Below are positions 516 through 63,339 of a stretch of DNA of 64,000 nucleotides, in pieces. The notes beneath the pieces are model-generated. The model was not told the origin of the DNA. It searched no databases and saw nothing but the letters and a program-made list of their open reading frames with translations. Each line of letters starts with the position of its first letter. Within the stretch, counting starts at the first letter, position 1. The DNA lies in assembly GCA_024734495.1 (NCBI GenBank), contig JALMQS010000099.1:103730320-103794319 (forward strand), in the 5' to 3' direction. This stretch comes from Forficula auricularia (taxonomy: Eukaryota; Arthropoda; Insecta; Dermaptera; Forficulidae). The position numbers were made by a program, and so were the translations under genes.

Positions 516-660
516 CAATGGTTTCACAAATGAATTCCTGTGAAACCATTGTAATAGACTGATGAAGAGGGCAAAGCCCTCGAAACTATAGTCTCGTTAT
601 AAATAAATAAAATTTATAATTACAGCAGAAGACACACTCTTTTATTGTCTCCTTCAAATT
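515..660 (+). mobile_element. Terminal fragment of a hammerhead-bearing foldback family
   Basis: A 14-bp perfect inverted repeat (515-528 with 539-552) is followed by a hammerhead-like core. After it comes a tail that ends with GCAGAAGACACACTC and TTGTCTCCTTC. The same tail occurs near 22,590-22,800, 26,490-26,620 and 35,410-35,580, so this is one dispersed family. This copy has a single arm. Confidence 0.6.
559..593 (+). ncRNA. Hammerhead ribozyme-like motif, copy 1
   Basis: The core reads CTGATGA, then one extra A, then a perfect 6-bp stem II (GAGGGC/GCCCTC, loop AAA), then GAAAC-TATA-GTC. The predicted cleavage site follows the final C at 593. Stem III would be the AC/GT pair closed by TATA. 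Stem I from the flanks (AGA with TC) is short and imperfect. Activity is inferred, not shown. Confidence 0.6.
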
Positions 661-799
661 ACATTTTATACGGAACAAATTAGGCAGTGAACAACGAATG
701 CAAAACAGAAAAATAAAGAAACAAACAAATAAATAAAAACATTGCAAATTATAATAATAGAAAAGTGTATAAAAACAAGAATCTTTTTGAGATACATTA

Positions 800-1686
800 G
801 AGAGTCGATAATCCGGATTAATTGTAACCGGACCCTGTCCAGATTATCAAAATGTCCGAATTTTCGAAAAGAACCAGAATAAGTTGGTTTAAGTTCATAA
901 CAAAAAGAAAACTTGCTAAAACCGGTAACAATTCACTTTAGTGGTTAAATAATTGGAGCAGATAAATAAATCATTAATTAATATGAACTTATGATGTATT
1001 TTAATGAAAGAATATACATATCAGTGGCGGATGCTGTCCAAAAAGTACCCTTCATTTTGTTAAATTTTATTTTAATCTTCGCTTTAGAAATAGATTATTT
1101 CACAGATTTTCGACTCATCTTTATTTATCCCTTTTTTGTATTATTTCTATTTCAATAGTTCTTCAGCGAGAACAATGTTTATTCGATTAAACTCATCTGG
1201 ACTTGTCTTTGACATGCTTGAACTGGAAGATATATCTACGAAGCACGGAGTTCAAACCTTCTACCAGCACCCATTTCGGAAAAATCATTCATCTTAATTG
1301 CCCCTTTAAACTATCCAACGATTTTATTTCATTTCGAGAAACAAAATAAACTTTTCAAAACAAAAAATGTTTTTATAGAAATATTTTAAATAGCGGATAA
1401 TAATTTGAAAATTTTAAGATTCACCTGAAATTTTAAAGTCGAGCTTATATATTTATGAAAATACTCTAAATGTTTGAAATTTTAGAGATTCCCCCCATCC
1501 ACAACATCCATGGACCGCACGCCACTGATACATACATATGTAATGTACAATATGTAGATACGTCGCACTAACGCTTTTGTTTGACAAATATGTATGTATG
1601 TATGTACTCACTTCAAATTTTTTTCACCGGAATCGAATCCGGATTATCGACGGTCTGGATTTTTGAAGTCGGGATTATCGACGCTC
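800..1686. mobile_element. pogo/Tigger-like non-autonomous DNA transposon
   Basis: The ends are inverted copies that share GTCGATAATC after GAGA or GAGC, and TA flanks both sides (798-799 and 1687-1688), as expected for a TA target duplication. The interior has no transposase frame. It contains a short (TATG)n run near 1,590. The terminal sequence resembles pogo/Tigger-type ends; the assignment is by ends only. Confidence 0.55.
1090..1190 (+). repeat. Dispersed repeat, second copy at 6,175-6,260
   Basis: About 90 bases around CATCTTTATTTAT and GTTCTTCAGCGAGAACA recur in the same orientation near 6,175-6,260. No coding content is seen. It lies inside the pogo-like element. Confidence 0.55.
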
Positions 1687-2088
1687 TAATATAATAAAAA
1701 TAATCCATAACACCTCGGATTTAGTAGTTGACCATTTCTCTTGATTTTCTAAAGATATTTACGTTTTTGTTCGTATATTGTTTTATATTTTGTCCAGTTG
1801 TTGAAATTAGACTAAAGAATTTACATTTTTTTCGATCAAATTAATAAAAAACAAATTAAATTAATGATTAACATAGTAATTTTCTGCATTGTTTGTGTCA
1901 TGAATTTAATCCCAATGGCTTCTGAAAGGCTCAGTTATGATCCGTGTAACACATATTCGTTCAAAGCAAATATCAATATTCCTCCCCACTAGCCCCTCAC
2001 CTATTTGAAACACATTTCCATCAAAACAGTAATGGCTATTTCTCTCTGATGAACAACATCCATTTCTAAGAACTCTTAGGGCCGGTTG

Positions 2089-2274
2089 TCTGTCGCAAAG
2101 TAAATGTTTTTTACAGCTAACAAACGGTAGAGGGTAAATGGAGGGACTGGGATGGCCAATCAGATGACAGGCACTGAAAGTTCTGTCATCTGATTGGCCA
2201 TCCCAGTCCCTCCATTTACCATCTACCGTTTGTTAGCTGTAAAAAGCATTTACTTTGCGACATACAACCGGCCC
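2089..2274. mobile_element. PIF/Harbinger-like hairpin MITE, copy 1
   Basis: This 186-bp element is almost entirely an inverted repeat. It begins GGGCCGGTTGT and ends with the complement, and is flanked by TTA on both sides (2,086-2,088 and 2,275-2,277). GG termini with a TTA duplication fit PIF/Harbinger. Related copies lie at 30,316, 44,267 and 46,330. Confidence 0.75.
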
Positions 2275-2277
2275 TTA

Positions 2278-2460
2278 ATATATAAGATGGGAAATAACTA
2301 TGCTTGCTTTAGACAAGACAAAGCTTGCTTATAGCAATAGAATTAGGAGATTGTTTCTTATATGACAGGCTGATTCATCGTGAAAGATGGTCGATTTCCA
2401 TCTCAGGGACTGTGGAGTTTAAATCACAATAATTCATTTCTGACTTCTACTCTCACTCAT
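2278..2460. repeat. Dispersed repeat, inverted copy at 5,990-6,160
   Basis: Reading out from the MITE, this block matches the reverse complement of 5,990-6,160. Shared landmarks are CTTATAGCAATAGAATTAGG and CTCAGGGACTGTGGAGTTTAA. The two copies form a widely spaced inverted pair about 3.7 kb apart. No gene is seen in either. Confidence 0.6.
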
Positions 2461-2469
2461 ATAAAGCAG

Positions 2470-4940: not shown

Positions 4941-4946
4941 CAAGGC

Positions 4947-11300: not shown

Positions 11301-11334
11301 CTGATGATGACATATTTGAAAATGTCGAAACGTT
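11301..11334 (+). ncRNA. Hammerhead ribozyme-like motif, copy 2
   Basis: The core is CTGATGA, one extra T, a 5-bp stem II (GACAT/ATGTC), then GAAACGTT. Stem I can form from CCAAGG upstream and CCTGG downstream, with one bulged A. It is a single copy, not in a foldback. An A-rich tract (AATAAAATAAAATAAAG) follows, as at the 3' side of other copies. Confidence 0.55.
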
Positions 11335-12530: not shown

Positions 12531-15500
12531 GTCAGTATCTCACATCTAATTAACTAAACCTATAAACATGAGCTCAATAAGCAGATCCGCTTACAAACTT
12601 CAAAAATATTTCTATCCATTTAAGGTAGTTGTTTCATCATATGAGTTTTCTTAGAATTTTTATGAAATTTAGACAGATTTTTTTGCAACGAAATTTTCTC
12701 TGGAGAGAGACGGACTGGTAGAAATTTTAATTGAAAGTAATGGAAGGCAGCCCAGAGGCAGTGAGGAAAGAAAAAATTAACACATACAAAATAAGGTGCG
12801 TAATTTATTGGAATCCTTCCTCCTTTCCTTTCAAACCGACGTTTCGGAGGATTTTCCCTCCCTCTTCAGGGCTTCAAAGGGTCAATGAATGAAACAAATA
12901 AAATGTTTCCTTCTTCTCTCCACAGTAGTGTTCAAAAACTTTCTTCATTTGTAACAAAAGGCATAGAAAGACAAAAAAAAAATTTTTTCCTTCTTTTCTT
13001 AATTAGAAGAAGGAAAAATTTTTTGTCTTTCTATGCCTTTGTTACAAATGAAGAAAAGTTTTTGAACACTACTGTGGAGAGAAGAGAAACATTTTATTTG
13101 TTTCATTCATTGACCCTTTGAAACCCTGAAGAAGGAGGAAAAATCATCCGAAACGTCGGTTTGAAAGGAAAGGAGGAAGGATTCCAATAAATTACACCTT
13201 ATTTTATATGTGTTAATTTTTTCTTTCCTCACTACCTCTGATGCCTTCCATTACTTTTCAATTAAAATTATTCTTTAGACAGATTATCAGTTTTTTTTAA
13301 TGATATTGATGTGAGAAGGAGATACACAAGAAGGTGCATCCCCTAAAGGCCTGTATGGGATGGCCCCTCCATCATGAAAAGAACAGAGTAGAAGGAAAGA
13401 AGCCGGGATCACGAGCCAAATTTCAGAAAGATAAATACAATCCAATATCCAATTTACTAAGTTTTTAGGGGCTTCGAGTAGTGGTAAATTCTCCGTTCGA
13501 TAAATTAGGTTTTAAATTTATCTCCCACTTAATTTTATTTCCAGACCCTATACTTACAGAAAAAATGACTGGGTATAGCCGGGAATCGAACCCGAGATCT
13601 CCGGGCTGCCAGCCAGGCATGCTGACCATTACACCAGGGAGGCCGACTAGTTAAATACTTCTACATCGATTGGGGGCAAAACGAAATTTATGAACAAAAT
13701 AGTTCCGGAGATATTAAATTCCAAAAATAGAGTTTTTCAGACTCTTATACATTGTACTATACGGGATATAGGAAAACTTACATACATATTTAATTATAAT
13801 TAAGAAACTCTTCTTGCCATTGTTATAAAAAACTAAACGAACATTAAACAATAATTTTTAGTAAAGATAAGAGTAAATAGATATTTTATTTAATATGGAT
13901 TTACTATGAGTTAAGGATACTGGGTCACTTATTTCACATTAAAATTAAAAAATTAAAAGATGTTTCACCTTGCACCAACACCACAATCTCTACTGATTAT
14001 TAATAATTTTAGGACAAATTCTAAGATTTTAGTAGAATATTATTAAATTGTGATACCAGAGTGGATTCATCCCCTCAGAGCGAATCTGAGAACTAACATG
14101 CTTTCCGGGCAGTCAGCTCACGTCCTGAAAGCATGTTAGTTCTCAGGATTCGACTCCTGAGGGGATGAATCCCTCTGATATCGCAATTTAATAATATTTC
14201 TACTAAAATCTTAGAATTTGTCCTAAAAATTAAATTTTTTCTCTTTTAAAATAGATTTGTTAATCTGAACCCGAGCTGATTTTTTGAAAATTTTTAAAAG
14301 AAGATGCTCAAAACTTTAGTTTTTTATTAAACAATAACTAATACATTTTTTAAGAAAATTTTAATTCATAGTTACAACACAGTTTCTGAGATAATAATGA
14401 ATAAATAATTAAAAATGTATAATGAAAAATTTACACTAAAAACAAGTCTGGCAACAACGCATTTATTTAACCTAAAAAGTGGGTTAACTTTAGTAATTTT
14501 TTGACGTTTTTTCGCTTCAGCCATTATCGCAACAGCTTTAATCATTTATTAAGAACTTTTTGTTTTATAAATCTCCCTTTATAATGTACTTTATCTGAAA
14601 TTTCTATAATAAAATATATACAAGCTCGGACAGATGTTGCCAGATTTGTCAAACGAGCACGGGATTGGCTAGTAGTGGTACATAAACAGCAAAAAGTTTT
14701 GGACTTATGAATTATGAATCTTTATTGTCTGTTCTATATACTCTAGCATTAACTTTTTGCTAGTATTGTCGAGAAACAACTACCTTAAAAATAATAATTT
14801 GGAACGCGGATTTCTAAACAGATATAGCTATTTAATTTTTTTGCCATTCAATATTAAACTGAACATTACAATTAGCTGTTCATTCTGAGAGATATCAAAT
14901 TTAGTAGATTCGACATGGATCTGCAAGGTCGTTTTATTGTAAAATAATTTTGGTATAAGTTTGAATTAGTATTGAAATAAAATCCCGAAAAATTCTCCTA
15001 ATTTCAATAATTGAATATAACACGGTTTCACATAACAAGGCATTTTCTAGTAACCTATCTACCATGTTATAGGAAGGTTACCCGTAGTCGGGGGTGAATC
15101 GCGATTGGAATTATGTGGAATTATTTTGGAATTCATTAGATAACGGCCCTTCATCTATTGTCTTCTACTTGGAAATGAAAGTGGAAGTAGGTGTACACGA
15201 TATTGGGTCTCGGTTCACCCCTCGCCTGTAGTTAATATTCACTTTTATATCAGATTTTTTTAATGCCACTAGCGAAGATGGGCTCAGTGGAAATTTCAAT
15301 ACATGGTATACATTTTAGTAAAAATTTCACAATTTTATATTTAACTAGCATAGGAATAATAAATATTTTATTTAAATGCTAGGCAATTTTTGTTACTGGG
15401 ATTTAAACGTATATGAAAATTCTTTCATCGGCCTCCATACCTAAATATTCTATTCCCCTTAAATCAGCGGTGCCTAACCTACGGCCCGCGGGCCGGATCC

Positions 15501-22419: not shown

Positions 22420-25400
22420 TAGATAATTTCATTTAAATTAGTAACCATGACGACCCCTGGACCCCCACCTCTCGAACCTCACTCCCCCCATCCCCGAAAC
22501 CCACCCAGCACCCCCACCCACACCACCACGCTAATGTACAGACAAAACCCTAATTTTATATATATAGATAATTTCATTTAAATTGAAGGAGACAATAAAA
22601 GAGTGTGTCTTCTGCTGGAATTATAAATTTTATTTATTTATATACAATCGTTATATACCTCTTTGTACAATAATAAAAGATGTGTCTTCTGCTGGAATTA
22701 TAAATTTTATTTATTTATAACGATCGTTATAAATATCGATATATCGATCCAGCAGAAGACACACTCTTTTTATTGTCTCCTTCAATATATAAAAATTCTG
22801 CTACTCTCGGCAAAAAACTTTCAATTCATTTAAATTGGTAACCATGACGACTGTTTTTGTTGGGGGACGGACATAGATACATAGATAGGTACATACAGAG
22901 GCAGGCACAAATGCGCTTTAGTAGTATAGGATATTAAATTTTTTTTTGAATATGATTAATAAATTCACACAATAAATAAATTAAAAATTCACTGTAATTT
23001 CTTTCATGTTAAAACATCCGAATGCTGGTTGAAATTTCTAAATTGCAATTTTTTACCCTATAAACAATTCAACCTACAAAGCATCAAATCTACAAATAGC
23101 AATTTAATTATTACATATTAGTGTCAATTGCGTTCATTCATAAAATGACCTCATTTTATTATGTACCACTTATTATATACCTCTTTGTACAATAATCTTT
23201 TTATATCCATGAAAGAATAATATACTATTATAACATTTTTTGTTAATTCAAAATGACTTTAATAAAATAGTCAGAGGTCAAAAGAGATTAAATAAAAAAA
23301 CACTTGTCATTTGATGACATTGGATTTCAGGTGTTCTATTGACCCGTATCTGTTTGAGAACTTCAATACCGTCGATGGAGATTTCCTCTCGGCCAAATTC
23401 CGCGCATTCAAGTTTCCTGAATCCACTTACGTGCAATTCCGAGGCACCGTTAATGTCTGCTTGGATAAATGCAAAGGGTGAGTACAATGATTTATTTATA
23501 TTTAATACTAACACATTCTATCGTTAAGTCCTACTAGTGAGCAGATATTTAAATCCAATTGAATTTTTGTACTTGACATAGTGGGTTTTACAATAGTTAG
23601 ATACCTAATACTCACTTTTTAATTAAAATTTTAGGAAATAATGAAATTTTCTCAAGACGTCGTTTGCAAATTTTTGGGACCGAGTAAATTTTTGGTAGTA
23701 AACGGTAATTACGTGGAAATTTATGGTAGCCTAAAAGTCCGATATAAAAACATGTATGCTACATTTCAACGCATTAGTTACATCTGTTCGAGCAGTCTCC
23801 AAATAACATTTTTTTATGAAATTTGAAACCCCAAAATCTAATCAATATTTGGTTTTGGAAGACCTATATTTTTTGAGTTACTTATCGTGAATTTCACAAC
23901 TTAGACAGGCATTTATACAGAAAAATGTACAGACACATTTTTAATTATAAGAAGAAAAAATGATAATTTCCACGGAAATTCAATTTCGTTTACCGAGTAA
24001 TTAAACCTTAATGATTCTATTTCAAAGAGAGGGATAAAAAAAGTTATTTTTTTCGAGATATTCAAACAAAAATATACTCTTTTAACACTTAATAAAATAT
24101 CCTATTTAAAAATGAGTTTAGTTAGTTGAAAATTAATATTTTATTTTTCCTATAAATTCTCAAATAAGTTGATAATGGTCCCCCCTTTGCATACATATTC
24201 CTTTTCAAGATAGGGTTAAAAAAGTTATTTTTTTCGAAATATTCAAACGTAAATATACTCTTTTAACTGTTAATAAAATATAGTATTTAAAATGAATTTA
24301 GTTGGTTGAAAATAATATTTTAATTATTCTAGAAATTCTCAAATTAGTTGATAAGGGTTCCCTCTTTTTCATACATATCCCTTTCAAGAGAGGGTTAAAG
24401 AAGTTATTTTTTCGAGATATTCAAACGAAAAATGCTCTTTTAACTGTTAATAAAATATACTATTTGAAATGAGTTTAGTTCGTTGAAAATTAATATTTAT
24501 TAATTAACAGGAATAGCAGGAATTGGATAAAAATAAAAAACAGAGTTTTTATTAAATGGGCCAGACGTTTCGTCGATTAATTTCGACTTCCTCAGTGGCT
24601 CATTCTATCACTCTTTGTCAAAAGACAATTCCACTGTCTGTTTAAAGAGTAGAAACATATTTTTTTTTTTTTGAGATAAATTTTGATTGTTCAAGTGTGT
24701 AAAAGTTCAAGATTCTTGAGCAATTGGGGCATGATCCAACAATGTATTATAGTTTAAATAAAAAGGATTAAAGGATGTTTCGTCGCGTAGTGGAATTGTC
24801 TTTTGACAAAGAGTGATAGAATGAGCCACTGAGGAAGTCGAAATTAATCGACGAAACGTCTGGCCCATTTAATAAAAACTCTGTTTTTATTTTTATCCAA
24901 TTCCTGCTATTCCTGTTAATTAATGCTTATTATGGATACGAGTGATCTACTGTTAATATTTTATTTTTCTAGAAATTCTCAAATAAGTTGATAAGGGTCC
25001 CCCCTTTGCATACATATCCCTTTCAAGAGAGGGTTAAAAAGTTATTTTTTTCGAGATATTCAAACGAAAATATATTCTTTTAACGCTTTATCAAATATAC
25101 TACATATTAAATCTTTTTTAAGTCCTAATAAAATAATCACTTTCATTAATTTACATGCTAAGATTTCAAATCGATTAAAAATTACATTTAAATAAAATCC
25201 TTTCTTTTTCCCTACAGTTTAGGAAACTTTAATATTTTTTTTTATTTTGTAGATGGAATGTAATAATGGTCAAGTTGGATTTGGCCGTCGAAGAAGAGAA
25301 GTAACACCCAACCAAGATGAAAACAAACTCTTTGAGGTCGCCATGTCTACTCTATTCCAAATCAAATTTTTACAAGATGACTCAGAAGAGAGTAAGAAAA

Positions 25401-40184: not shown

Positions 40185-40498
40185 TGAAATAATTTTTTTA
40201 ATATCTTTATAATATAGAGCTATTCTTTGATGTATTATTTTAGAAAAGATTTTTGATTTACTTCATCATACTGAATATGGGGATTTACCCTAATTTGATT
40301 AAAAATTAAAATAGAAGCTAGAAAATACAATGGCTTCTCCATCTTGATAAATAAATTATTATTTTTTATTCGATAGAGATTTTCTTTAGGAGACGGACTG
40401 GTATAAATATGCAATTGGATGTTGATGAAAGCAGTCCACGGTGGTTGTAAAAAATAAGACTATAGAGGCTTTATTATTTTACATTTATTTGTTAAACC

Positions 40499-40531
40499 GA
40501 CGTTTCGGAGATTTATTCTCTCCTTCTTCAG
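40499..40531 (-). ncRNA. Hammerhead ribozyme-like motif, copy 7
   Basis: CTGAAGA, extra A, stem II GGAGA/TCTCC, GAAACGTC on the minus strand. The base next to the core differs from its mate (A instead of C), so the first stem I pair would be lost. Confidence 0.6.
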
Positions 40532-41127
40532 TGTCTATATAATTGAGGGGAAGACGAACATTAATTAGTATTGGGATTTTTCACAAGTCATTCATAATAT
40601 AAAAACAATATAAACAAAACAAAAATAATAATCATAAATATATTAATGACGTTTCGAACTATGTTTTTTAAAAGAAAAAAAAAGAAAAAAAAAGAACTTT
40701 GTATATATTTTGTAAAAATTTTGGGTCTGATAATGACCATATTTATAAATTTGTAAATAATTGTAATATAAATTAAAAAAAAAACCAACAACTATACCGA
40801 TATGCGCAACGATATTCTGCGCATCCAATGATTGGTGGGGACATGTTATACATTCATTCATTTATATATATCTCATTAACATATTGATCATCAATTGCTT
40901 TTTACTTTATTTTCTATTCGAGATGAAAAACAAATTTTATAATGTTTTTTTGGCATTGTCAAAGGAGACAGAAAGTAATTATGTTTTGAACTACTTTCAT
41001 TGACTTTTTGTTGTAAGTAGATTTATGATTATTATTTTTGTTTTGTGTATATTGTTTTTATATTATGAATGACTTGTGAAAATCCCAATACTAATTAATG
41101 TTCGTCTTCCCCTCAATTATATAGACC

Positions 41128-41160
41128 CTGAAGAAGGAGAGAATAAATCTCCGAAACGTC
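41128..41160 (+). ncRNA. Hammerhead ribozyme-like motif, copy 8
   Basis: CTGAAGA, extra A, stem II GGAGA/TCTCC, GAAACGTC. Stem I: TAGACC upstream pairs with GGTTTA downstream, six pairs including one G-U. Confidence 0.65.
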
Positions 41161-41269
41161 GGTTTAACAAATAAATGTAAAATAATAAAACCTCTATAGT
41201 CTTATTTTTTTACAACCACCGTGGACTGCTTTCATCAACATCCAATTGCATTATTTTTTATAATTAAGT

Positions 41270-44450: not shown

Positions 44451-44479
44451 TATTATTTATTATATTTGATTAGCGAGAG

Positions 44480-46055
44480 AGATTTATATCAAGATTTAAC
44501 AAAATAAATAATAAATGAATACTTTTTTACTGTTTTTACTGTATTAATAAATCCAAAAACTCCGGGCCTGAGAGGCCCTTCTTTTTTTGACTTTGTGTAT
44601 GTAAAATTATTACAAGAAAAAATTAGGTATATACAATTTTTTTTAGAAAATTACTTTAAAAATACTTTACTAAATGAAAGAATAATAAAACCTTGGAATT
44701 TATGAGACGCCTTTTCTGAAAGTTATTGAAAGGAGGTGTGACCGGACAGGTCTGCGTTCTAGGGTAAATTTTAAAACCCAGTATTGTTCATGACAAATAC
44801 AATTGATTAAAACTAAGAACTTTAAACGATTAATTAAAAACCCACTTCAGAGTTCAGGGAGCGTAGCTTTCTGGACAGTAAAATAATTTTTAAGAAAAAA
44901 ATAAAAACCGACATCAAAAAATTAAATGCAACAAATAAAATACACTAAAAGGTATAAAACAATTATTATCTTATTTAGTTACAACTAAACGACGAAATAT
45001 TAACACGAAATTACTTTTTGAAGTTGGTGCCAAACATATACCTTTTATGAATCGCACTCGACGGATCTTAGTACTTTTGGCGGTCAAGCTCGCTTATAGT
45101 TATAGTTTGTTTGGTACGGACTTCAAAAAGTAATTTCATGTTAATATTTCGTCGTTTAGTTGTAACTAAATAAGATAATAATTATTTTATACCTTTTAGT
45201 GTATTTTATTTGTTGCATTTAATTTTTTGAAGTCGGTTTTTATTTTTTTCTTAAAAATTATTTTTATTGTTCTCTTTTTAGTGATGTCATTAATAGTGAT
45301 CATATATCATCAGAACTTGACCAAATTAATATGACACCATCCCTAAGACACCCCCTTTCGGATAAAAAAATAACCATCGAAATCGGTTCATAAACAAAGA
45401 GGTTAGGTCTAAACAAACCTAATAAAAAAGGTCTAATACCTATGAAAAAAAATGAAAAAAAAATGGGACCAACCGGAAGCTAGACTGGACCCAATGCAAA
45501 AAATATTTTCAAAATCGGTTGACAATTGGCGGAGATATGAGGTAACATAGGCACAAAAAAAAAAAAAAAAAATTCAATCGAATAGAGAACCTCCTCCTTT
45601 TTTGAAGTCGGTTAAAAATGGACTCCGAAGGCGGGCTTCCCCGCTGGTTATTAATATACAAATACAAACGTCGGAAAGTGGAGGAGTTATATATTGTATT
45701 TGATTAGTGAGAGAAATTTATATCAAAATTTAACAAAATAAATAATAAATGAATAGTTTTTTACTGTTTTTACTGTATTAATAAGCCCAAAAACTCAGGC
45801 CCTTTTTATGACTTTGTGTATGTAAAATAATTCCAAGAAAAAATTAGGTATATAAAATTCATTTTTAGAAAGATCCTTTAAAAACATTTTCCTAAATGAA
45901 AGAATATTAAATCCTTGGAATTTACGAGACGTCTTTTCTGTAAGCTATTGAAAGGAGGTGTGACCGGACAGACCCGGGTTTGCGTTATATGGTAAATTTT
46001 AAAATCCATTAATAATTCATGACAAATATAATTTATTAAAATTAGGAACTTTAAA
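44480..46055 (+). repeat. Direct repeats of about 370 bp (44,480-44,860 and 45,690-46,055)
   Basis: Both copies share ATTTGATTAG(C/T)GAGAGA, TTTTTACTGTTTTTACTGTA, AAAGGAGGTGTGACCGGACA and TAAATTTTAAAA. The AACCGACTT element B lies between them. They may be long terminal repeats of a dead element or a local duplication made by the insertions. Confidence 0.65.
44884..45617 (+). mobile_element. AACCGACTT family element, copy B
   Basis: A full-length copy, with the palindromic first part, the CCATCCCTAAGACACCCCC block, an A run at about 45,555-45,572 and GAAGTCGGTTAAAAATGG at the end. It is in opposite orientation to copy C at 46,817-47,552. Confidence 0.7.
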
Positions 46056-46151
46056 TTATTATTTTAATGAATTGGCTAAGGGGCCAGTTATGTGGGGAGG
46101 GGGGGGAGTTGAAATAAAAGCCAACTTCTATTTAATACTTTATTTTGGGCA

Positions 46152-46204
46152 GACGTAATAGATATTTTACAACGTTTCGACGCTACACCGCTGCTCTTCA
46201 TCAG
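46152..46204 (-). ncRNA. Hammerhead ribozyme-like motif, copy 9 (degenerate)
   Basis: CTGATGA, extra A, a weak stem II (GAGC.../...GCGTC), then GAAACGTT on the minus strand. If ACGT pairs with the ACGT 15 bases on, cleavage would follow GTC at 46,152. Stem I is only GCA/TGC. Confidence 0.4.
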
Positions 46205-46329
46205 TGCACGTTAACCAAGTCACAAAAACACGCAAAATTTATCTCCAGTAGACGTTTTACATTTGGAATCATTACACTGGTAAACAAACTATTTCAACTG
46301 AACAATTTCAATTACTTAGTACTTACTTA

Positions 46330-46478
46330 GGACCGGTTGTATGTCGCAAAGTAAATGCTTTTTACTACTAACAAACTGTAGATGGTAAATGGAGCCACTG
46401 GGATGGCCAATCAGATGTCAGGCACTTCTACCGTTTGTTAGTAGTAAAAGCATTTACTTTGCGACATACAACCGGCCC
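46330..46478. mobile_element. PIF/Harbinger-like hairpin MITE, copy 4
   Basis: GGACCGGTTGTATGTCGC faces its complement; TTA precedes it and TAA follows. Its sequence is closest to the 2,089 copy (ACCATCTACCGTTTGTTAG). Confidence 0.75.
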
Positions 46479-46592
46479 TAAGTAATTGAAATTGTTCAGT
46501 TGAAATAGCTTGTCTACCAGTGTAATGATTCAAAATGTAAAATGTCTGCTGGAGATAAATTGTATGTGTTTTTGTGACTTGGTTGATGTGCA

Positions 46593-46646
46593 CTGATGAA
46601 GAGCAGCGGTGTATCGCTCGAAACATTGTGAAATATCGCTTACGTC
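46593..46646 (+). ncRNA. Hammerhead ribozyme-like motif, copy 10 (degenerate)
   Basis: CTGATGA, extra A, stem II GAGC/GCTC with a large loop, GAAACATT. The mate has GAAACGTT. A distal GTC closes the motif only with a long stem III loop. Confidence 0.4.
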
Positions 46647-46816
46647 TGCCCAAAATAAAGTATTAAATAGAAGTTGGCTTTTATTTCAACTTTTTCGCCC
46701 CCATAACTGGCCCCTTAGCCAATTCATTAAAATAAAATTTAGTCAAAGGCGGGCTACGCCACTGGTTATTAATACAAAATACAAACCTCGGAAAGTGGAC
46801 GAGTTTTATTTATTTT

Positions 46817-47552
46817 TAACCGACTTCAAAAAAGGAGGAGGTTCTCTATTCGACTGAATTTTTTTTTTTTTTTTTTTTTTGTGCCTATATTACCTCACAT
46901 CTCCGGCAATTGTGAACCGATTTTGAAAAAAAAATTTGCATTGGGTTCAGTCTAGCTTCCGATTGGTCCCATTTTTTTTCATAAGTATTAGACATTTTTT
47001 GTTAGCTTTGTTCATGCCTAACTTCTTTGTTTATGAACCAATTTCAATGATTCTTTTTTTATTCGAAAGGGGGTGTCTTAGGGACGGTGTCATATTAATT
47101 TGGTCAAGTTCTGATGATATGATCACTATTAATAACATCACTAAAAAGAGAAAAATAAAAATAATTTTTAAGAAAAAAATAAAACCGACTTCAAAAAATT
47201 AAATGCAACAAATAAAATACACTAAATGGTATAAAATAATTATTAACTTATTTAGTTACAACTAAACTACGAAATATTAACATGAAATTACTTTTTGTAG
47301 TCGGTGCCAAACAAACTATACCTACCTATAAGCGAGCGAGCCCACCAAACGTACTAAGTAAGATACGTCGAGTGCGATTCATAAAAAGTATATGTTTGAC
47401 ACCGACTTCAAAAAGTAATTTCATGTTAATATTTCGTAGTTTAGTTGTAACTAAATAAGTTATTAATTATTTTATACCTTTTAGTGTATTTTATTTGTTA
47501 CATTTAATTTTTTTGAAGTCGGTTTTATTTTTTTCTTAAAAATTATTTTTTG
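46817..47552 (-). mobile_element. AACCGACTT family element, copy C
   Basis: A full copy on the minus strand (TTTAACCGACTTC at 46,817; T run at 46,859-46,880). It ends about 90 bp short of the 5' splice donor of LRR gene 1. With copy B it makes a 2.7-kb inverted-repeat arrangement inside the first intron. Confidence 0.7.
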
Positions 47553-48250: not shown

Positions 48251-48477
48251 TGACCCCAAAAGGAGTTTTGGGGGAGCCTACGAATGAAAATTATCAAATA
48301 ACTCATAAACTATTAACACAATGGCAAATTTCATTATAAGCAAAGTTGTAGGGGTTGTGATTTCTGACAACTTTTGCTTAAAAAAATTCCGCCGACCGAA
48401 ATGGAGATCATTTTTACGAAAATCTTGAATTTTAGTCCACATTCAAAATTTAAAATTATCACTTATTACTTACTTTA

Positions 48478-48574
48478 CCCCAGGTAACCACAATATCCTA
48501 AGAATATTCTAAGGATATTCTAAGGACATTTAAATCTTCTTAGAATATTCTGAGGATATTGTGTGTTACCTGGG
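48478..48574. mobile_element. 97-bp hairpin MITE
   Basis: CCCAGGTAACCACAATATCC faces GGATATTGTGTGTTACCTGGG, with AGAATATTCT pairs inward. It directly abuts family V copy C. The duplication is unclear. Confidence 0.7.
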
Positions 48575-50628: not shown

Positions 50629-53425
50629 GATATTGTATATCTACTCTTATTAAACGAGCAAAATCCTTTATATATGTAAGTTCGAAACACCCACACACGG
50701 AGACGAGTCGGAGGGGATGACAAGGACAAGCGAGCGCCATAATAGATTGACACCTCAAGCAATAGAGAGACTGTTTAAAACGCTCAAGTCAAATACAATT
50801 GTTAATACACAATTTAATTATTATATAGTACCTGGCCACCGAGCGATGCTCGGTAAATTTTTGCTTCAGTTAATAGCTATATATTAATCCCCGGAACCCC
50901 CCCCTCGCCCCCCGGACCCCCCACCTCATGCACCCCCTCATCTACCCCTACACCCCCGCCCACGCACCCAGTTTTTGCATTTCTAGCCTTCAGTGGCCCA
51001 CAGATTATGTATATATAGTTATATAAATAAATACGATATCATTATTTTTTTTAATTAAATAACAATTTTTGAGTTCATCAATTAAATTGTCAAATTAATA
51101 TTTGTGAGATTTAAAACTCGATTTTTAATCAATTAAATTTTTTTTTTTTTTTTATAAATTTTATTAAACCAATTATTTTACATTAATTAATGTATACCTT
51201 GTATTTTAGCTTCGATTTCGGAGATTGCTTCTCCACCATCGAGTGTCCTTATTCATCTTTAGTCCTTGTTTTTAATAAGAGGAAAAATCTAATTAGATAA
51301 AAAAACCTCTTTTCCGATAATTATTTAAATTCCATTATTCCCCAATCAAATCGATTGTGTAATCTTCCTTCTCTCTCCTCTCTCTCTCAATCAATTAAAT
51401 TGCTCAGCTTTTAATATATAATAATAATTATAATGATCTTATTGTGGGATATAAAATTAAAAAACCAATTATTTATTAAAAGGAAATTGAATAAAAATTT
51501 AAATAAACATTTTTATCAAGACACCAACCTGTGAATAATTGTTTCAATTAACAAAAAACCCATCAAAAACAACTTAGCCGAAGATGAGACCGTGACAGAT
51601 CGAATGTCCAACACAAAACCCTCCTAACCCGTGAATTTCATCCAAATCGTAAGAGCCTTTTTCAAGAACCCTATTGGATATATATAAATATATATATACA
51701 AACTTTGCTCGTTTAATATAAAATAAGATTATATAAAATCACTTATAGATAAATATCATTGTTAAAACTAAGTAAAGGACCTGAAATTTCGAGTTTCACA
51801 TTTCAGGTAATTAATAGAAAACTTATTGTAAATAACTGTATATATTAATAAACATTTCACATTTCAGTGGAACACGATTTTTATCTACCTCGCACCCATC
51901 CCACTTATAACTCGAAATTTCAAGTCCTTTACTTATAGCCCAAGAGCCCACGACGGCCAGACCTTCGTTATTTTATAAAAGCTGAAAGTTTTTCTCTGCA
52001 TGTCCACTATACAGGTAAGAACGACCAGCGACTATAGAGTTTGGGTTGTGGTTACTTTGGCAGGTAACAGGTAATAAAGGTGTATAAAATGGTACTTTAA
52101 ATTCGTTAAAGTATAAAGCTCAATTTTTTTATATTTTCTTCGGGATAACTTTAGAAATCTCGTCATCCATTGCCGGACACTTATGACAGTTGCTACCCCC
52201 TGCCAGACACCCCTAAACTTTAATAAATTATAATTATACTTTCGTTATAATATAAAAGATAAATTTTATATATGTTACTTGGCGACCTATAAAAAAATGT
52301 TACCTCAATAGCCGGACAGTTTTAATGGTTTTTACATAGATTTTTGACATTTCGGTTATTATTGATAACCATTGGTGAAGACATGGAGGAATCGACTTAA
52401 AATCAAAAATAACCATCGATTCTTATCTAATACTAGAGGAATAACCTTATTGCATTCCATTTTTGTTGTTTTGACTATTAATGGCAACCTCTACTGAAAA
52501 CGTGGAAGAATCGACTTAAAATCAAAAAGACTAAACTCTTTTATGGCAAACCACTCAAGCTTGAGTTGTTTAACAAAAAAATTTAGTCTTTTTGATTTTA
52601 AGTCGATTCTTCCACGTTTTCAGTAGAGGTTGCCATTAATAGTCAAAACAACAAAAATGGAATGCAATAAGGTTATTCCTCTAGTATTAGATAAGAATCG
52701 ATGGTTATTTTTGATTTTAAGTCGATTCCTCCATGTCTTCACCAATGGTTATCAATAATAACCGAAATGTCAAAAATCTATGTAAAAACCATTAAAACTG
52801 TCCGGCTATTGAGGTAACATTTTTTTATAGGTCGCCAAGTAACATATATAAAATTTATCTTTTATATTATAACGAAAGTATAATTATAATTTATTGAAGT
52901 TTAGGGGTGTCTGGCAGGGGTAGCAACTGTCATAAGTGTCCGGCAATGGATGACGAGATTTCTAAAGTTATCCCGAAGAAAATATAAAAAATTGAGCTTT
53001 ATACTTTAACGAATTTAAAGTACTATTTTATACACCTTTATTACCTGTTACCTGCCAAAGTAACCACAACCCAAACTCTATAGTCGCTGGTCGTTCTTAC
53101 CTGTTTAGGGGACATGCACAGAAAAACTTTCAGCTTTTATAAACTAACGAAGGTCTGGCCGTCGTGGGCTCTTGATCTATTAGTTTTAACAATGATATTT
53201 ATCTATAAGTGATTTTATATAATATATAATAATTAAATTGTATATTAACAATTGTATTTGACTTGAGCGTTTTAAACAGTCTCTCTATTGCTTGACGTGT
53301 CAATCTATTATGGCGCTCGCTTGTCCTTGTCTTCCCTCCCACTCGTCTTCATGTGTGGGTGTTTCGAACTTACATATATAAAAAATTTTGCTCGTTTAAT
53401 AAGAGTAGATATACAATAAACAGTA
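50629..53425. repeat. 2.8-kb outer inverted repeat
   Basis: Bases 50,629-50,822 (landmarks GAAACACCCACACA, GCGAGCGCCATAATAGATTG, AACGCTCAAGTCAAATACAA) recur inverted at about 53,225-53,425. The left side carries an extra block of about 0.9 kb (50,830-51,715, with C-rich sequence at 50,890-50,980) that has no right partner. Inside lies the large palindrome. Confidence 0.75.
51945..53175. repeat. About 1.2-kb near-perfect palindrome
   Basis: The arms of about 615 bp mirror around CTCAAGC/TTGAG at 52,560/52,561. Successive landmarks match with only scattered differences: CCACGACGGCCAGACCTTCG, CAGCGACTATAGAGTTTGGG, ATTGCCGGACACTTATGAC, CAATAGCCGGACAG. The inner part contains two of the about 120-bp units found at 36,965-37,340. 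No reading frame of note. Confidence 0.85.
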
Positions 53426-55170: not shown

Positions 55171-55270
55171 TACTTCATAAAGAGAAACAAAGAGGTCTTC
55201 TGCTTGATGCAAATAAACATATACACATATTAAATATATATATATGTATATATATTATTTATTTGTTTGG

Positions 55271-55305
55271 GACTATAGTTTCAAAGGCTTGGCTTTCATC
55301 ATCAG
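55271..55305 (-). ncRNA. Hammerhead ribozyme-like motif, copy 11
   Basis: CTGATGA, extra T, stem II with AAAG/CTTT pairs, GAAAC-TATA-GTC on the minus strand. The core is intact, but stem II is weaker than in its mate. Confidence 0.55.
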
Positions 55306-55445
55306 TCTTTTTTTAATTAAAAATATTATTTTTCATGGGGTCAGTATCGCGTGGATATTGAAAATGTTTGTTCTTACTTAGCCAACAAGTACGTTTTCAT
55401 GCGATACTGACACCATGAAAAATAATATTTATAATTAAAAAAAGA

Positions 55446-55480
55446 CTGATGATGAAGGCCAAGCCTTCGACACTATAGTC
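55446..55480 (+). ncRNA. Hammerhead ribozyme-like motif, copy 12 (core mutated)
   Basis: CTGATGA, extra T, perfect stem II GAAGGC/GCCTTC (loop CAA), but GACAC in place of GAAAC, changing invariant A14. It should be inactive. Confidence 0.5.
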
Positions 55481-55512
55481 TCAAACAAATAAATAATATA
55501 TATATTTTGCAG

Positions 55513-56205: not shown

Positions 56206-57483
56206 TCAGCTGCACTCGAGCATGTCCATGGAATCGATCCAGGGCTGTCCCACAATGGGTGGTGGATGAGTACATTCGCCTTCTGTTACTTGGATATTTG
56301 ACCGTGCCCACTCGATGGTCACCTCTAAATCGCAGGAGCATTTCAGAGGATTCCTTAAGAGAACCAACCGACGAAGTTTAGCATTATGAGCCAACGCTTT
56401 ATGACTGAACGTGGTTAAATTGTTATCCGATAAATCCAGGTAATCTAATTTCTCCAATGCGGTTAGAGCACCATCGCTGATATTAACAATATGATTCCCT
56501 TCCAGGAAAAGTCGATTCAAGCTTTTCAATTTGTTGAAAAGTCCAGCCTGAATAAATTTCAACTCTGCATTGCTCAAATCAAGTTCATGGAGTTTGGGTA
56601 ATCCGTTCCAGTTGCTATTCTCCAAAGTTTTAAATGGATTGTTATTAATCAAAAGCGAGGTCAGGTTTCTCAATCCATGGAATCCACTTTTAGGTAGAGA
56701 AGTCAGACCAGTGTTATTTAGACTAAGATCCTTTAATCCTGTTAAACCTGCGAAGGTATTTTCATTTAAAACTTTCAAAGGATTTTTTGAAATATCCAAT
56801 GTAACGAGCTGAAGAGTTTTGCTGAAATCCACCTCAGATATATTACAATTTGAAACATAAAATTTTCTTAAATTCGGTAAAGATGCGATTACATCCATAT
56901 CCAAACTATTAAGAGGATTATCATTTAATAAAACTTGATACAATTTAGGTAATCCTTGAAAAGCAGGCCATGGATTTGTAATTCGGTTTCCTTCCAAATA
57001 CAGCATATATAAATTAGTGAATGCTGAAAAAATTTCTTCAGGTAATTCTTCAATCCGATTGAAACTTAAATCAAGTCGGAAGAGATTTGTTTGATTACGA
57101 AGAAAGGAGATATCGGTAAGTTTATTATGCGATATGGATAAACTTTCTAAGAGACATTTTGATAATAATTCTTCCGGGATTTCGGTTAACTCATTTTTAT
57201 CTAATTTAAATACTTTGAGTTTTTCGAGATTTTTAAAAGATTCTAATTTTATCCATTTCAAATGATTGTTCGAGAGATCAATATCTATAGTTTCAGCCTC
57301 AAAGATAGGTAACTTATCTTCATGAATATGTTTGCAGAGTACTTGGATAGGAATCGGTTGTTTCTCTCCGATTGCTTCTTGATTACTCGGCTCAGGACAA
57401 GTGCAGGATTCAGGACATGCGTTGACATTTATGAAAAGTGAAGAGATGAGCAGGATCGGGCCCAAAACAAACAACCGCTTCAT
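56206..57483 (-). CDS. Secreted leucine-rich-repeat protein, paralogue 2 (425 aa)
   Basis: A signal peptide (residues 1-22, ending NVNA) is followed by an LRRNT cap with cysteines at 23, 27, 29 and 50, about 14 leucine-rich repeats, and an LRRCT cap beginning NPLKCSC with cysteines at 382, 384, 404 and 424. The protein stops one residue after the last cysteine, so there is no anchor and it should be secreted. Cap spacing (C-x-C-19-C-19-C) and repeat register equal those of paralogue 1; the N-cap has a 12-residue longer gap. The start is supported by the signal peptide and a TTTTGCAG acceptor one base before ATG, which joins the noncoding exon at 63,539-63,637. The coding sequence is intronless. 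The pair is clearly a tandem duplication. Binding partner and process are unknown; no canonical AATAAA is seen in the first 110 bases downstream. Confidence 0.93.
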   Translation of the reverse strand: MKRLFVLGPILLISSLFINVNACPESCTCPEPSNQEAIGEKQPIPIQVLCKHIHEDKLPIFEAETIDIDLSNNHLKWIKLESFKNLEKLKVFKLDKNELTEIPEELLSKCLLESLSISHNKLTDISFLRNQTNLFRLDLSFNRIEELPEEIFSAFTNLYMLYLEGNRITNPWPAFQGLPKLYQVLLNDNPLNSLDMDVIASLPNLRKFYVSNCNISEVDFSKTLQLVTLDISKNPLKVLNENTFAGLTGLKDLSLNNTGLTSLPKSGFHGLRNLTSLLINNNPFKTLENSNWNGLPKLHELDLSNAELKFIQAGLFNKLKSLNRLFLEGNHIVNISDGALTALEKLDYLDLSDNNLTTFSHKALAHNAKLRRLVLLRNPLKCSCDLEVTIEWARSNIQVTEGECTHPPPIVGQPWIDSMDMLECS

Positions 57484-59697: not shown

Positions 59698-59849
59698 ATT
59701 ATCTTATCGTTTTATAAAACAAATTAAATTTTTAGGAGTGAAAAATTATTTTTTGTGATTTTTCGCGTAAACTCCTTCGTATACAAATGATAAAATAAAT
59801 TAATTAATGTTCAAAACATTTTTATTCAAATTTAAAATGTCAAATAAAT

Positions 59850-59881
59850 GACTAGTTTTCGCCAAAAGTTTGGCTCATCAG
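59850..59881 (-). ncRNA. Hammerhead ribozyme-like motif, copy 13
   Basis: CTGATGA directly joined to stem II (GCCA/TGGC), then GAAAAC with one extra A, then TAGTC, on the minus strand. The extra A in the conserved segment probably disables it. Confidence 0.5.
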
Positions 59882-59918
59882 ATATTTTTAAATTGAATCT
59901 TTTGTAATTAAAAAATAT

Positions 59919-59948
59919 CTGATGAGCCAAACTATGGCGAAACTAGTC
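59919..59948 (+). ncRNA. Hammerhead ribozyme-like motif, copy 14 (canonical core)
   Basis: CTGATGA-GCCA-loop-TGGC-GAAAC-TA-GTC. G follows A9 directly and pairs with the C before GAAA, as in textbook hammerheads, with no extra base. Stem III is AC/GT around TA. Stem I from ATAT and ATTT is weak. It has the best core in the window. Confidence 0.68.
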
Positions 59949-60337
59949 ATTTGATCTTTTAAATTTGAATAAAAATGTTTTGAACATTAATTAATTTATT
60001 TTATCATTTGTACACGAAGGAGTTTACGCGAAAAATCTGCTACTGACAAACTCCAACGCGCTGTTAATGAGATATCGACCTGGGCTAAACGGTGGCGAAT
60101 CAAGTTTAATGAAGTCAAATCGCAGCATATCAATTTTACGAATAGACAGGAGTCCCCACTACCAATTACCCTAAATCATCAGCTAATACCATATGCTAAT
60201 ACTGCAAAATATCTTGGTATGACTCTCGATGCTAAGCTCCGCTGGAAGGAGCATATCCTGACAAAAGTCAAACAATTAAAAATAATTAAAAGAAAGTTAT
60301 ACTGGATGATAGGACGGAGATCCAAACTGTCCATATA

Positions 60338-60850
60338 CAGGGTGGGACAAATGGATCGGGTGGTTTTAAAATACTTGTCAAACTGTCAATTTTAAAGGTA
60401 TTGGATTGAAATAAAGTGCAAAACGTGTAGTTACAATGGAAGTTTATTAACAAAAAATTAGTAAAGTTAGTTTTTAAAACAACTGCACATACGGCTAGGA
60501 TATCAATGCAAGCTGTACGCGCTCTGTTCCCTGGCCGTTTGATTTCCCGTAATGGAGATCTCCATTGGCCCCCTCGCTCACCGGACCTCACGGTATGTGA
60601 CTTCTTCTTATGGGGCTATTTAAAAGCAAGGGTGTACATGAACAAACCCCGGACCATTCAGGAGTTGAAGGCAGCAATTGACAACGAAATCACATTAATT
60701 CCTGGTGATGTGCTTGAGCGGGCAATGCGGAACGTTAAGGACCGACTCCAAGAATGCGTCGCTCTTTTGCACTTTATTTCAATCCTATACCTTTAAAATT
60801 GACAGTTTGACAAGTATTTTAAAACCACCCGATCCATTTGCGCCACCCTG
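60338..60850 (+). mobile_element. mariner-type element inside the jockey copy
   Basis: The inverted ends of about 85 bp start CAGGGTGG and share AAATGGATCGGGTGGTTTTA and TTGTCAAACTGTCAATTTTA. TA flanks both ends (60,336-60,337 and 60,851-60,852). The 513-bp length, against a usual autonomous size of about 1.3 kb, shows an internal deletion. Confidence 0.88.
60506..60796 (+). pseudogene. mariner-like transposase C-terminal fragment
   Basis: Contains FPGRLISRNGDLHWPPRSPD, LTVCDFFLWGYLKARVYMNK and a final AIDNEITLIPGDVLERAMRN-type helix. The SPDL...DFFLWG block holds the last catalytic-site region of mariner/SETMAR-type DDE/D enzymes. The N-terminal DNA-binding and first catalytic residues are deleted. 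Confidence 0.8.
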
Positions 60851-61396
60851 TATAACAAAATTATTGTGTATAGACGAATCATAAGACTAGTCTGGATCTA
60901 TGGTATACAGCTCTGGGGCTGTAGCAAAGAATCAAATATCAGGATGATTCAAACTTTTCAAAACAATACTCTGCGAGATATCGTCGATGCCTGCTGGTAC
61001 ATCAGGAACGGAGACACCAGGAAGGATCTCCACATTACTACTGTACAAGAGGAAATAACTAAAGCAGCCAGGAATCATAAATTGCGACTGGCAAATCACT
61101 ATAATCCCGAAGCTGTTCGACTACTCAGCACCGTCGGACAGCTGAGAAGATTGAAAAGGACCAAGCCAACTGACTTGTCCCAATAAGAAACTTTAAAATG
61201 ACCCCAGTGAATTGCGGATAGTGTTAGACATTTGCAATGTCATCAATGAGATGACATGCTTCCTGAATGTTATATACTTACTTTATTATAGTAAAATCAT
61301 AAAACGGTCATCTGACTGGATTGATAATGTAAAATTTAAATAAAAAAAAAATTGTATACGAAGGAATTTACCCGAAAAATTACAAAAAATAATGGA

Positions 61397-61640: not shown

Positions 61641-62132
61641 TTTTTTTGATATTTCAAATGGAATTTGATCATTTATTAAAACCTTATTTAAATTTAAAGT
61701 GATATTGAGAAAGTAGGATAATTTGTAATTGTAAGTGTATATTGTATTAGTGTATATTATCTTCATTTTTAAGCCAGAAATTCAGAAGCAAGAAAACTCA
61801 AAATCTAATCAATTCTTCGTTTTAGAAATACAAAATGTTGACATCGGAATAAACTTTCTACGACTTTCGGATCTTGAGCTATCATGGTTGTTGAAATGCA
61901 GACAAACATACAAATGTACAGACAGAAAACATGGTTGAACGTTATTTTTCTCCACTTTTAATACATTTTTAAACACAAGTTAAAAAATGTACTAAAGATA
62001 ATATAATTTGTGAAAAATGTTTTGAGTAAATTTAATTATTTTGATTAGTAATGTCCATCGATTAAATTATTAAAGTTGTTATCGGAAAATAAAGACTATA
62101 TTTTTTATGCAGATAATTTCTATTTTATTGCC

Positions 62133-62163
62133 AACGTTTAATCAACTTTGTTGACTTCTTCAG
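62133..62163 (-). ncRNA. Hammerhead ribozyme-like motif, copy 15 (decayed)
   Basis: CTGAAGA and stem II TCAAC/GTTGA are kept, but GAAACGTC reads TTAAACGTT. It is presumably dead. Confidence 0.4.
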
Positions 62164-62315
62164 TGCTCAAATAATTATCTTCCTTGGATATTTGTCATTT
62201 TTATAATTATTCTTGCTTAGTAAACATAACAAGGCAAGTGATTAACATCAATCAGATTAGAATTCTAAGAAAGAATAATAATGACAAATATGCAGGGAAG
62301 AAAACTATTTGAGCC

Positions 62316-62346
62316 CTGAAGAAGTCAACAAAGTTGATGAAACGTC
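62316..62346 (+). ncRNA. Hammerhead ribozyme-like motif, copy 16
   Basis: CTGAAGA, extra A, 6-bp stem II GTCAAC/GTTGAT (one G-U), loop AAA, GAAACGTC. Stem I: GCC with GGC, then an internal loop and TTT with AAA. Confidence 0.62.
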
Positions 62347-62375
62347 GGCAATAAAATATAAATTAGCTGCATAAT

Positions 62376-63118
62376 AAGCTGACGTGCTCTGATGTGGCCA
62401 TCCACTTAACTTGACCATACAACCTGGCCCCTAACTTATATTTAATATTTAATAAAATTATTTATAATCATGAATTTTTAGATTACTGTGGGCCCACTGA
62501 TTATTTATTTATTTATTATAACATTGTATCTATAGGGCCATCTAGCCCCTTTACTGTACAATTTTAGACCTAAATATTTACAAAAAAAATATAATTAAAA
62601 TAATACAAGAAAAAACAAAAAAAAATCATAAATGTATACAAAATTTGGTTGAATTTGGTACAAGAGCGTAGATTTTCATTTTTTGACCCCCCTCCCCCTC
62701 CCTCATTTTGGGCGGCTAGTTTTTGCATTTTTAGACTTCTGGGGTCCCACTGATTATGTATCCAAAATTTGGTTGAGTTTGCTCAAATGGCCTGGATTTT
62801 TAATTTTCAACCCCCCTCCCCCCTTTAATTTTGGGTCTATATGCACCAATTTCTAATCAGCTCTTAAGCTCAATGAACCAAAACTACGTGTGAAATTTGG
62901 TTTCGATATTCCCACTAGTTTAACAGACATTTTGACAAAACAATTGTTATGTCGAAAAATATAATTTTTTCTATGTTCCTTATACCGAAATGTCATGGTT
63001 TTGCTCAATTTTTTTAATCAAAACACTTCCTAACGTTTTTGAGATATTTCGAAAAAAAGAAGGAAAAAAAACCACTTTTTTCATGCACGATTACAATATT
63101 TAACCATACCCTGTATGG
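62376..63118 (+). mobile_element. Family V dispersed element, copy D
   Basis: It opens AAGCTGACGTGCTCTGATG directly after foldback 7 and ends CCATACCCTGTATGG before foldback 8. An insertion of about 140 bp at 62,500-62,640 (ending in A runs) interrupts its first internal repeat. Confidence 0.65.
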
Positions 63119-63254
63119 CAAAGTAAAAAATATAGTCCTTATTAAGATTGGAGTAATTTTTGGAGACGGACTGATAAGTGAATTAAGTGGATATTGATGA
63201 GGCAGTCCAAAAAAAGAAGAAGATAATTTACACTATCTTTTTATTCATAAAACC

Positions 63255-63286
63255 GACGTTTCGGAGGCTATTCCCTCCTTCTTCAG
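63255..63286 (-). ncRNA. Hammerhead ribozyme-like motif, copy 17
   Basis: CTGAAGA, extra A or G, stem II GGAGG/CCTCC, GAAACGTC on the minus strand. Stem I AACC/GGTT plus a G-U. Confidence 0.62.
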
Positions 63287-63308
63287 GGTTCACTGACTTT
63301 TCAAAACC

Positions 63309-63339
63309 CTGAAGAAGGAGGAATAGCCTCCGAAACGTC
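63309..63339 (+). ncRNA. Hammerhead ribozyme-like motif, copy 18
   Basis: CTGAAGA, extra A, stem II GGAGG/CCTCC (loop AATAG), GAAACGTC. Stem I AAAACC (63,303-63,308) pairs perfectly with GGTTTT (63,340-63,345). All three stems and the core can be drawn. Confidence 0.7.

Follow-up and report, generated by a model that had tools for sequence, protein, structure and literature searches.

Hammerhead-bearing foldback elements of Forficula auricularia as probable remnants of Penelope-like elements

The 64,000-nucleotide stretch of the Forficula auricularia genome analysed here (GenBank assembly GCA_024734495.1, contig JALMQS010000099.1, positions 103,730,320 to 103,794,319 of the forward strand), hereafter called the window, contains eighteen hammerhead-ribozyme-like cores. 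As a first-pass annotation had stated, sixteen of them lie as facing pairs in inverted arms; these form eight palindromic foldback elements, and the other two cores stand alone. From sequence comparison we conclude that the eight foldbacks and the two solo cores are very probably short remnants of several families of Penelope-like elements (PLEs). Direct evidence of a parent exists for three of them, and the rest are assigned through shared anatomy. The elements are listed below, foldbacks without a strand, in positions counted from the first letter of the window.

523..657, plus strand: solo Penelope end with a core at 559-586; 96% identity over 135 nt to locus L060 (PLE family B), where the match lies downstream of a GIY-YIG frame
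11301..11331, plus strand: solo core; stems I and II paired, stem III palindrome ACGT; no match among 22 PLE loci
12680..13273: foldback E2; tail 12680-12722, left only; palindrome 12723-13269; cores 12841-12869 (minus) and 13126-13154 (plus)
12668-12679 and 13274-13285: target duplication of E2, 12 bp, TTTAGACAGATT
24499..24924: foldback E3; arms 24499-24635 and 24789-24924; cores 24567-24595 (minus) and 24829-24857 (plus)
40370..41249: foldback E4; tail 40370-40408; arms 40409-40639 and 41021-41251; cores 40502-40531 (minus) and 41128-41157 (plus)
40358-40369 and 41250-41261: target duplication of E4, 12 bp, ATTATTTTTTAT; the palindrome overlaps the duplication by 2 nt
44880..47549: 46-kb pair (E5), a large nested palindrome; cores 46174-46204 (minus) and 46593-46624 (plus); no parent PLE found
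55174..55504: foldback E6; arms 55247-55350 and 55401-55504 plus a longer left end; cores 55278-55305 (minus) and 55446 (plus, degenerate)
59757..60037: foldback E7; cores 59850 (minus, degenerate) and 59919-59943 (plus); stem III ACTAGT
62105..62374: foldback E8; cores 62133 (minus, degenerate) and 62316-62343 (plus)
63144..63409: foldback E9 (63-kb element); tail 63144-63181; palindrome 63182-63411; cores 63258-63286 (minus) and 63309-63336 (plus)
63132-63143 and 63410-63421: target duplication of E9, 12 bp, ATAGTCCTTATT; the palindrome overlaps the duplication by 2 nt

Hammerhead-like cores in the window

All eighteen cores reported in the first pass were recognised, fifteen as exact and three as decayed copies. 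The exact pattern CTGANGA-N(8-30)-GAAAC (CTGANGAN{8,30}GAAAC) matches the window fifteen times, in every case at one of these cores; 100 dinucleotide shuffles gave 0.48 matches on average and never more than 3. In the cores at 55446, 59850 and 62133 the GAAAC box is altered, and each of them lies opposite a better copy. A strict structural filter, which demanded the core, a stem II of at least 3 bp, GTH within 6 nt and at least 3 contiguous base pairs of stem I, retained 9 of the 18 cores without mismatches and none in each of three shuffles (0, 0, 0). With one mismatch permitted it again retained 9, and ten shuffles gave 1 in total. The minus-strand positions given in the first pass are low ends of the cores and accurate to within ten bases, with the exception of 46152, where the core actually occupies 46174-46204.

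The conserved core with paired stems I and II is that of a type I hammerhead. The ordinary helix III of this type is missing; in most cores helix III is a self-complementary palindrome, namely ACGT, ACTAGT or ACTATAGT. With helix III reduced to a palindrome, the cores are “minimal” hammerheads which may pair as dimers, and the zero-loop stem III suggests that any cleavage would need two adjacent cores. The covariance search with Rfam that had been proposed as a check did not bring the expected support: no hammerhead family was reported at the gathering score or at E ≤ 10 for the whole window, nor with two single cores, likely because the cores lack an ordinary helix III. Below the gathering score many microRNA-precursor models matched the palindromes, which they read as hairpins; a few of the E-values are tiny (1.6e-27, for example). 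A weak match to RAGATH-17 RNA at 567-620 (19.5 bits with a gathering score of 102.3, E 1), covering stem II of the 559 core and the sequence downstream of it, is probably due to chance.

Penelope-like elements in the same genome

The first-pass annotation pointed to Penelope-like retroelements as known carriers of hammerheads and stated that no such polymerase is present. A search of the 1.06-Gb genome that holds the window with the GIY-YIG family yielded 3423 first-look candidates; 150 were scored, all 150 lay above the family cut-off, and several are situated in open frames of 825-864 amino acids. The polymerase and these hammerheads are both present in this genome, and at genome scale the earlier statement does not hold. 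At locus L065, PLEs are arranged head to tail with three cores spaced 2909 bp and two 858-amino-acid frames seen whole. The one frame scanned contains RVT_1 (1.6e-16) and GIY-YIG (8e-6). Each frame is followed by a core about 200 nt past its end. Among the 20 best-scoring loci that were cut out, 15 have a same-strand core downstream, and L045, L046, L049, L050 and L063 are without one. Named PLE relatives were found in insects, a springtail, flatworms, vertebrates, rotifers and Hydra.

Three elements of the window match PLE ends, and through these partners they are connected to a protein with reverse transcriptase and GIY-YIG, which bears out the suspected Penelope connection. The first is the solo end at 559 with its counterpart in family B. 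The second is E6, of which the part 55174-55364 shares about 85% identity (198 aligned columns) with the region between the frames of PLE family A at L065. The third is E4: at L081, E4-type arms flank a 5'-truncated PLE frame on both sides, and this frame is 33% identical to family C over 360 aligned positions, the GIY-YIG region included. Exact matches to two minimal-hammerhead patterns number 19,810 (CTGANGAN{8,30}GAAACGTCGG) and 29,205 (CTGATGAN{8,26}GAAACTATAGTC) genome-wide, together 49,015, which are counts of motifs and not of elements; each reversed pattern gave 0.

Judged from its sequence, an arm of a foldback is a PLE end (pseudo-long terminal repeat, pLTR), composed of a minimal type I hammerhead and usually AATAAA, which follows the core within 45 nt in 68 of 83 cases. 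The arms of the group E2/E4/E9 additionally contain a G-poor stem-loop GGACTG...CAGTCC (GGCTG in E2) with a loop of 29-31 nt holding zero or one G. In all three elements the tail-less arm stops inside the loop of this stem, and the left end runs 38-43 nt past the stop of the other arm. Among the matches listed (twice the first 100 places, contigs C1-C4), 40 pairs of adjacent cores within 1 kb are divergent (-+), 2 convergent (+-) and 3 direct (++). The foldbacks therefore have the inverted, outward-facing pLTRs of PLE derivatives.

A tail of about 30-40 nt at one terminus is present in part of the elements and absent in the rest. Outside the set of 63-kb loci we counted 18 pairs, or 15 without repeats, of which 12 carry the tail motif on exactly one side and 3 on neither. 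Within that set, 13 of 17 pairs have the motif 79-90 nt from one core and 4 are without it; at L017 a second tail motif lies 243 nt away, beyond the element. Because this set was picked with a tail-bearing query, only the count outside it is independent. E2, E4 and E9 are each flanked by a perfect 12-bp duplication. For the E9 family, 30 copies including that of the window were cut out and the ends parsed in 29 (all except L021). Duplications of at least 10 bp flank 23 of these 29 copies, compared with 10 of 812 cross-pairings of flanks from different copies. Their length is 7-15 bp, mostly 11-14 bp. Short target duplications of this kind are a further trait of PLE derivatives.

Several results weigh against an assignment of all elements to PLEs. 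The 22 PLE loci yielded no parent of E2, E3, E5, E7, E8, E9 or the core at 11301, and the frames of L081 and L068 have no Pfam match at E ≤ 1. E2 and E9 are tied to PLEs via the tail, the stem-loop and the core type that they have in common with E4. The link of E3, E5, E7, E8 and 11301 consists of the core and, where present, the palindrome only. The tail motif occurs in E2, E4 and E9 only among the eight window foldbacks, and the other five have no convincing duplication. In particular, neither a tail motif nor a clear duplication was found at the ends of E3, for which a genome-wide search gave 1699 first-look candidates; 40 were scored, and their arm lengths differ.

Further features lie beside these elements. 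Several inverted repeats are nested around the 46-kb hammerhead pair (44151-48963). Beside E2, a tRNA-like match on the minus strand at 13579-13636 exceeds the Rfam gathering score (31.1 bits, positions 8-63 of 71). Near E7, an open frame at 60431-60793 (within 59991-61183) resembles the tail of a Tc1/mariner transposase and lies between fragments of a putative LINE-like frame. Another palindrome, at 52197-52920, has 346-nt arms that are 99% complementary, a 32-nt spacer and more inverted arms outside, and holds none of the listed cores. Two single-frame leucine-rich-repeat proteins are encoded on the minus strand at 42446-43714 and 56206-57483; the closest relative of the first is 84% identical.

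Palindrome centres and a proposed mode of insertion

The first-pass annotation proposed that the elements may be a non-autonomous foldback lineage. Copying of such a lineage as one unit does not agree with the palindrome centres. In the E9 family, centres were parsed in 21 of the 30 copies. In 20 of the 21 the tail-less arm begins 17-27 nt upstream of the core, and in the remaining copy 8 nt; for the tail-bearing arm this distance is 0-13 nt. Of the two arms, the tail-less one extends further toward the centre in 20 of 21. A junction pattern for the 63-kb family found 199 junctions genome-wide, of which 100 were among the matches listed and 99 were used; 83 of these 99 show TTCAG followed by GGG. 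The 83 junctions comprise 45 distinct sequences, the commonest class occurring 11 times, and the exact centre of E9 of the window occurs 12 times at up to 3 mismatches, its own copy included. In view of this junction diversity, we no longer regard self-copying of the 63-kb element as an intact palindrome as its main route. Copies of the E4 type are likewise variable in their middle: in the 5 of 15 loci with a pair, the query arm is 98-100% identical and the spacers measure 405, 567, 596, 737 and 1561 nt.

Since copies so frequently have different centres, their palindromes probably arose at insertion. Arm asymmetry, target duplications, diverse junctions and variable spacers, all read from the sequences of the copies, fit such an origin better than unit copying. 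Selection of copies by similarity could favour some centre lengths, but it hardly explains the asymmetry of the arms.

Some points count against palindromes made at insertion. Later point mutations may inflate the number of distinct junctions, and recurrent junctions may be hot spots or copies of one another. As some junctions recur, up to 11 times, some elements may have been copied as units. Moreover, the two arms of one element diverge by 3.8% compared with 4.7% between elements, a value reached in 0 of 5000 permutations. The arms of an element thus probably stem from the same or a closely related template, or were homogenised, and a scheme with a single template is possible.

These points can also be read as signs of an inherited palindrome, in which the element derives from a palindromic source and the centre differences are later damage. 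The centres of palindromes and hairpins are unstable and prone to deletion. Together with the likeness of the arms within one element and the recurrence of junctions, with a commonest class of 11, this gives the inherited palindrome some weight. Nevertheless, we consider it unlikely: with the tail-bearing arm shorter toward the centre in 20 of 21 copies and the other arm starting 17-27 nt upstream in 20 of 21, the damage would have to be one-sided, and symmetric damage would not yield this arm asymmetry. Nearly identical E4-type arms (98-100%) around spacers of 405-1561 nt speak against it as well.

For palindromes made at insertion, we propose the following steps. The PLE enzyme would cut both DNA strands about 12 nt apart. 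Each of the two DNA ends would then prime reverse transcription of PLE RNA at a different internal start site, both sites lying shortly past the hammerhead; the internal start is inferred from the stop positions in the stem-loop. The two cDNAs would be joined head to head and thereby give a palindrome, in which the hammerhead would be carried along as part of the PLE end. A tandem transcript would have a pLTR at both ends, and priming at the first pLTR would lead to a short, pLTR-sized product. Start sites at the pLTR and the resulting short products would explain the swarm of copies. The integration of Penelope elements is poorly known (PMC11167929). A PLE of the anole is reported to cleave and extend both strands; its reverse transcription begins at either of two neighbouring internal sites within an AC-rich stem-loop, and the tail corresponds to the stretch from one site to the other (PMC11167929).

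Whether most insertions of the 63-kb family are records of single events of double priming we regard as evenly balanced. In such an event each DNA end would prime its own cDNA, the tail-less cDNA would tend to run off near a fixed point just upstream of the hammerhead, the tail-bearing cDNA would be cut short, and end joining would make the palindrome anew.

Role of the hammerhead and comparison with known systems

It had also been suggested in the first pass that the elements move through self-cleaved RNA. The arms, however, continue unbroken through the predicted cleavage site, so that a linear self-cleaved RNA could not have been the template, whereas a religated circle could. In addition, the hammerhead of the anole PLE was dispensable for insertion in vitro, according to PMC11167929. 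In a folding run the whole 63-kb element formed one long hairpin, which would bury the sense core behind the antisense arm. Due to the unbroken arms and the buried core, we regard the hammerhead as a component that is conserved in PLE ends; any action of it would precede or follow the step that makes the foldback.

The locus L040 (594-1096; G000:C4:1022593-1023095) contains five direct head-to-tail hammerhead units of the E2 type with a period of about 118 nt, ending in E2 end sequence. By its sequence the array resembles that of a retrozyme, and cleavage as a dimer would be possible there. Retrozyme-like elements, which would be non-autonomous RNA circles formed by hammerhead cleavage and ligation and reverse transcribed with the help of PLEs, could accommodate this array, the covariation of the hammerhead described below and, via a religated circle, arms that run on across the cleavage site. 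Mobilisation of animal retrozymes by PLEs has been proposed (PMC7761336). Yet published retrozymes are direct tandem repeats, of 150-450 bp in metazoan non-LTR retrozymes (PMC7229834), whereas 40 of the 45 adjacent pairs within 1 kb are divergent (among the matches listed) and one direct array, L040, was seen. Furthermore, in E2, E4 and E9 the tail-less arm terminates within the stem-loop and not at the cleavage site. We therefore judge retrozymes to be an improbable origin of the foldbacks.

A foldback lineage of DNA transposons with terminal inverted repeats, moved as a palindromic unit by a transposase and carrying the hammerhead sequence incidentally, is very improbable. Long inverted arms, a small unit, many copies and flanking duplications are in its favour, and so are the putative Tc1/mariner-like frames near E7 and in L073. 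Such elements would have symmetric ends and duplications of fixed length. In the E2/E4/E9 group, by contrast, the ends are asymmetric with tails on one side only and the duplications vary (7-15 bp); the diverse centres and the related arms at the ends of PLE frames also contradict a DNA transposon.

The pairing of the stems was compared in 13 hand-picked representatives, some taken from the window and others from loci elsewhere in the genome. Between them they have 11 different stem II sequences, a few representatives sharing a stem; the stem of E7 was read one base earlier than the others. As a null, the 3' strands were re-dealt among the representatives in 20,000 trials per stem. Stem II has standard pairs in 51 of 52 cells (shuffled mean 31.2, maximum 45), with 12 of 13 representatives pairing at all four tested positions and the 13th at three. 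Stem I is paired in 41 of 52 cells (shuffled mean 22.9, maximum 37); its outer two pairs are weak, and 2-4 of four positions pair per representative. As pairing in both stems lies above every shuffle, it was kept while the families diverged. The earlier observation that stem II differs in sequence between families and stays base-paired is thereby confirmed, with an enrichment of paired changes. Among the 30 copies of the E9 family, including that of the window, core positions vary by 2.56% compared with 2.58% elsewhere, so that individual inserted copies do not look constrained. That the hammerhead likeness is a fortuitous sequence conservation of a repeat is hardly credible, since the missing Rfam hammerhead match and the equal variability of the core in the E9 copies (2.56% and 2.58%), which would suit it, are opposed by full stem II pairing in 12 of 13 representatives (three positions in the 13th) across 11 stem II sequences and by the weaker pairing of stem I (2-4 of four).

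Returning to a PLE origin, the closest known system is the Penelope of Adineta vaga, which according to PMC3846280 has an inverted pLTR, an optional 31-bp tail at one pLTR and, where present, duplications of 8-10 bp. In both systems the terminal repeats face outward, one of them being inverted, the junctions are palindromic, the target duplications are short and one repeat may carry a tail (about 31 bp in A. vaga); in both genomes proteins with GIY-YIG and reverse transcriptase occur. In contrast to A. vaga, most of the element is gone in F. auricularia, and pairs of PLE ends that face each other across a small remainder occur in high number; the duplications, measured here in one family, are mostly 11-14 bp instead of 8-10 bp.

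The cores themselves are in agreement with the minimal hammerheads of Lunse et al. 2017, which citing papers (PMC7761336, PMC6155905) describe as type I cores without a normal helix III, located in PLE ends and dispersed by the thousands. The likeness holds in these features as described, with the difference that three palindromic forms of stem III occur side by side in F. auricularia. With metazoan retrozymes (PMC7229834) the foldbacks share that they are non-coding, bear hammerheads and likely depend on the enzymes of other elements; unlike them, the foldbacks are mostly inverted pairs, and their ends do not coincide with cleavage sites. No published account of Penelope foldbacks consisting of pLTRs only was found in the open-licence literature, which was covered largely at listing level.

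In conclusion, the feature is real and abundant and was recognised correctly in the first pass. It belongs to a familiar class, that of Penelope ends carrying minimal hammerheads, and here takes a palindromic form stripped to the minimum; the reading that most deserves attention is the formation of each palindrome at insertion. A single genome contains 49,015 exact matches to the two minimal-hammerhead patterns, counted as motifs, of a kind that the Rfam hammerhead models did not report in the window. If double priming is true, it would account for the inverted pLTR as well as for the tail on one side. The junctions make PLE integration countable, in terms of the arm that has the tail, the point at which each cDNA stops and the way in which both are joined. 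Such copies, perhaps thousands in a genome like this, would then read out steps of PLE integration that are poorly known.

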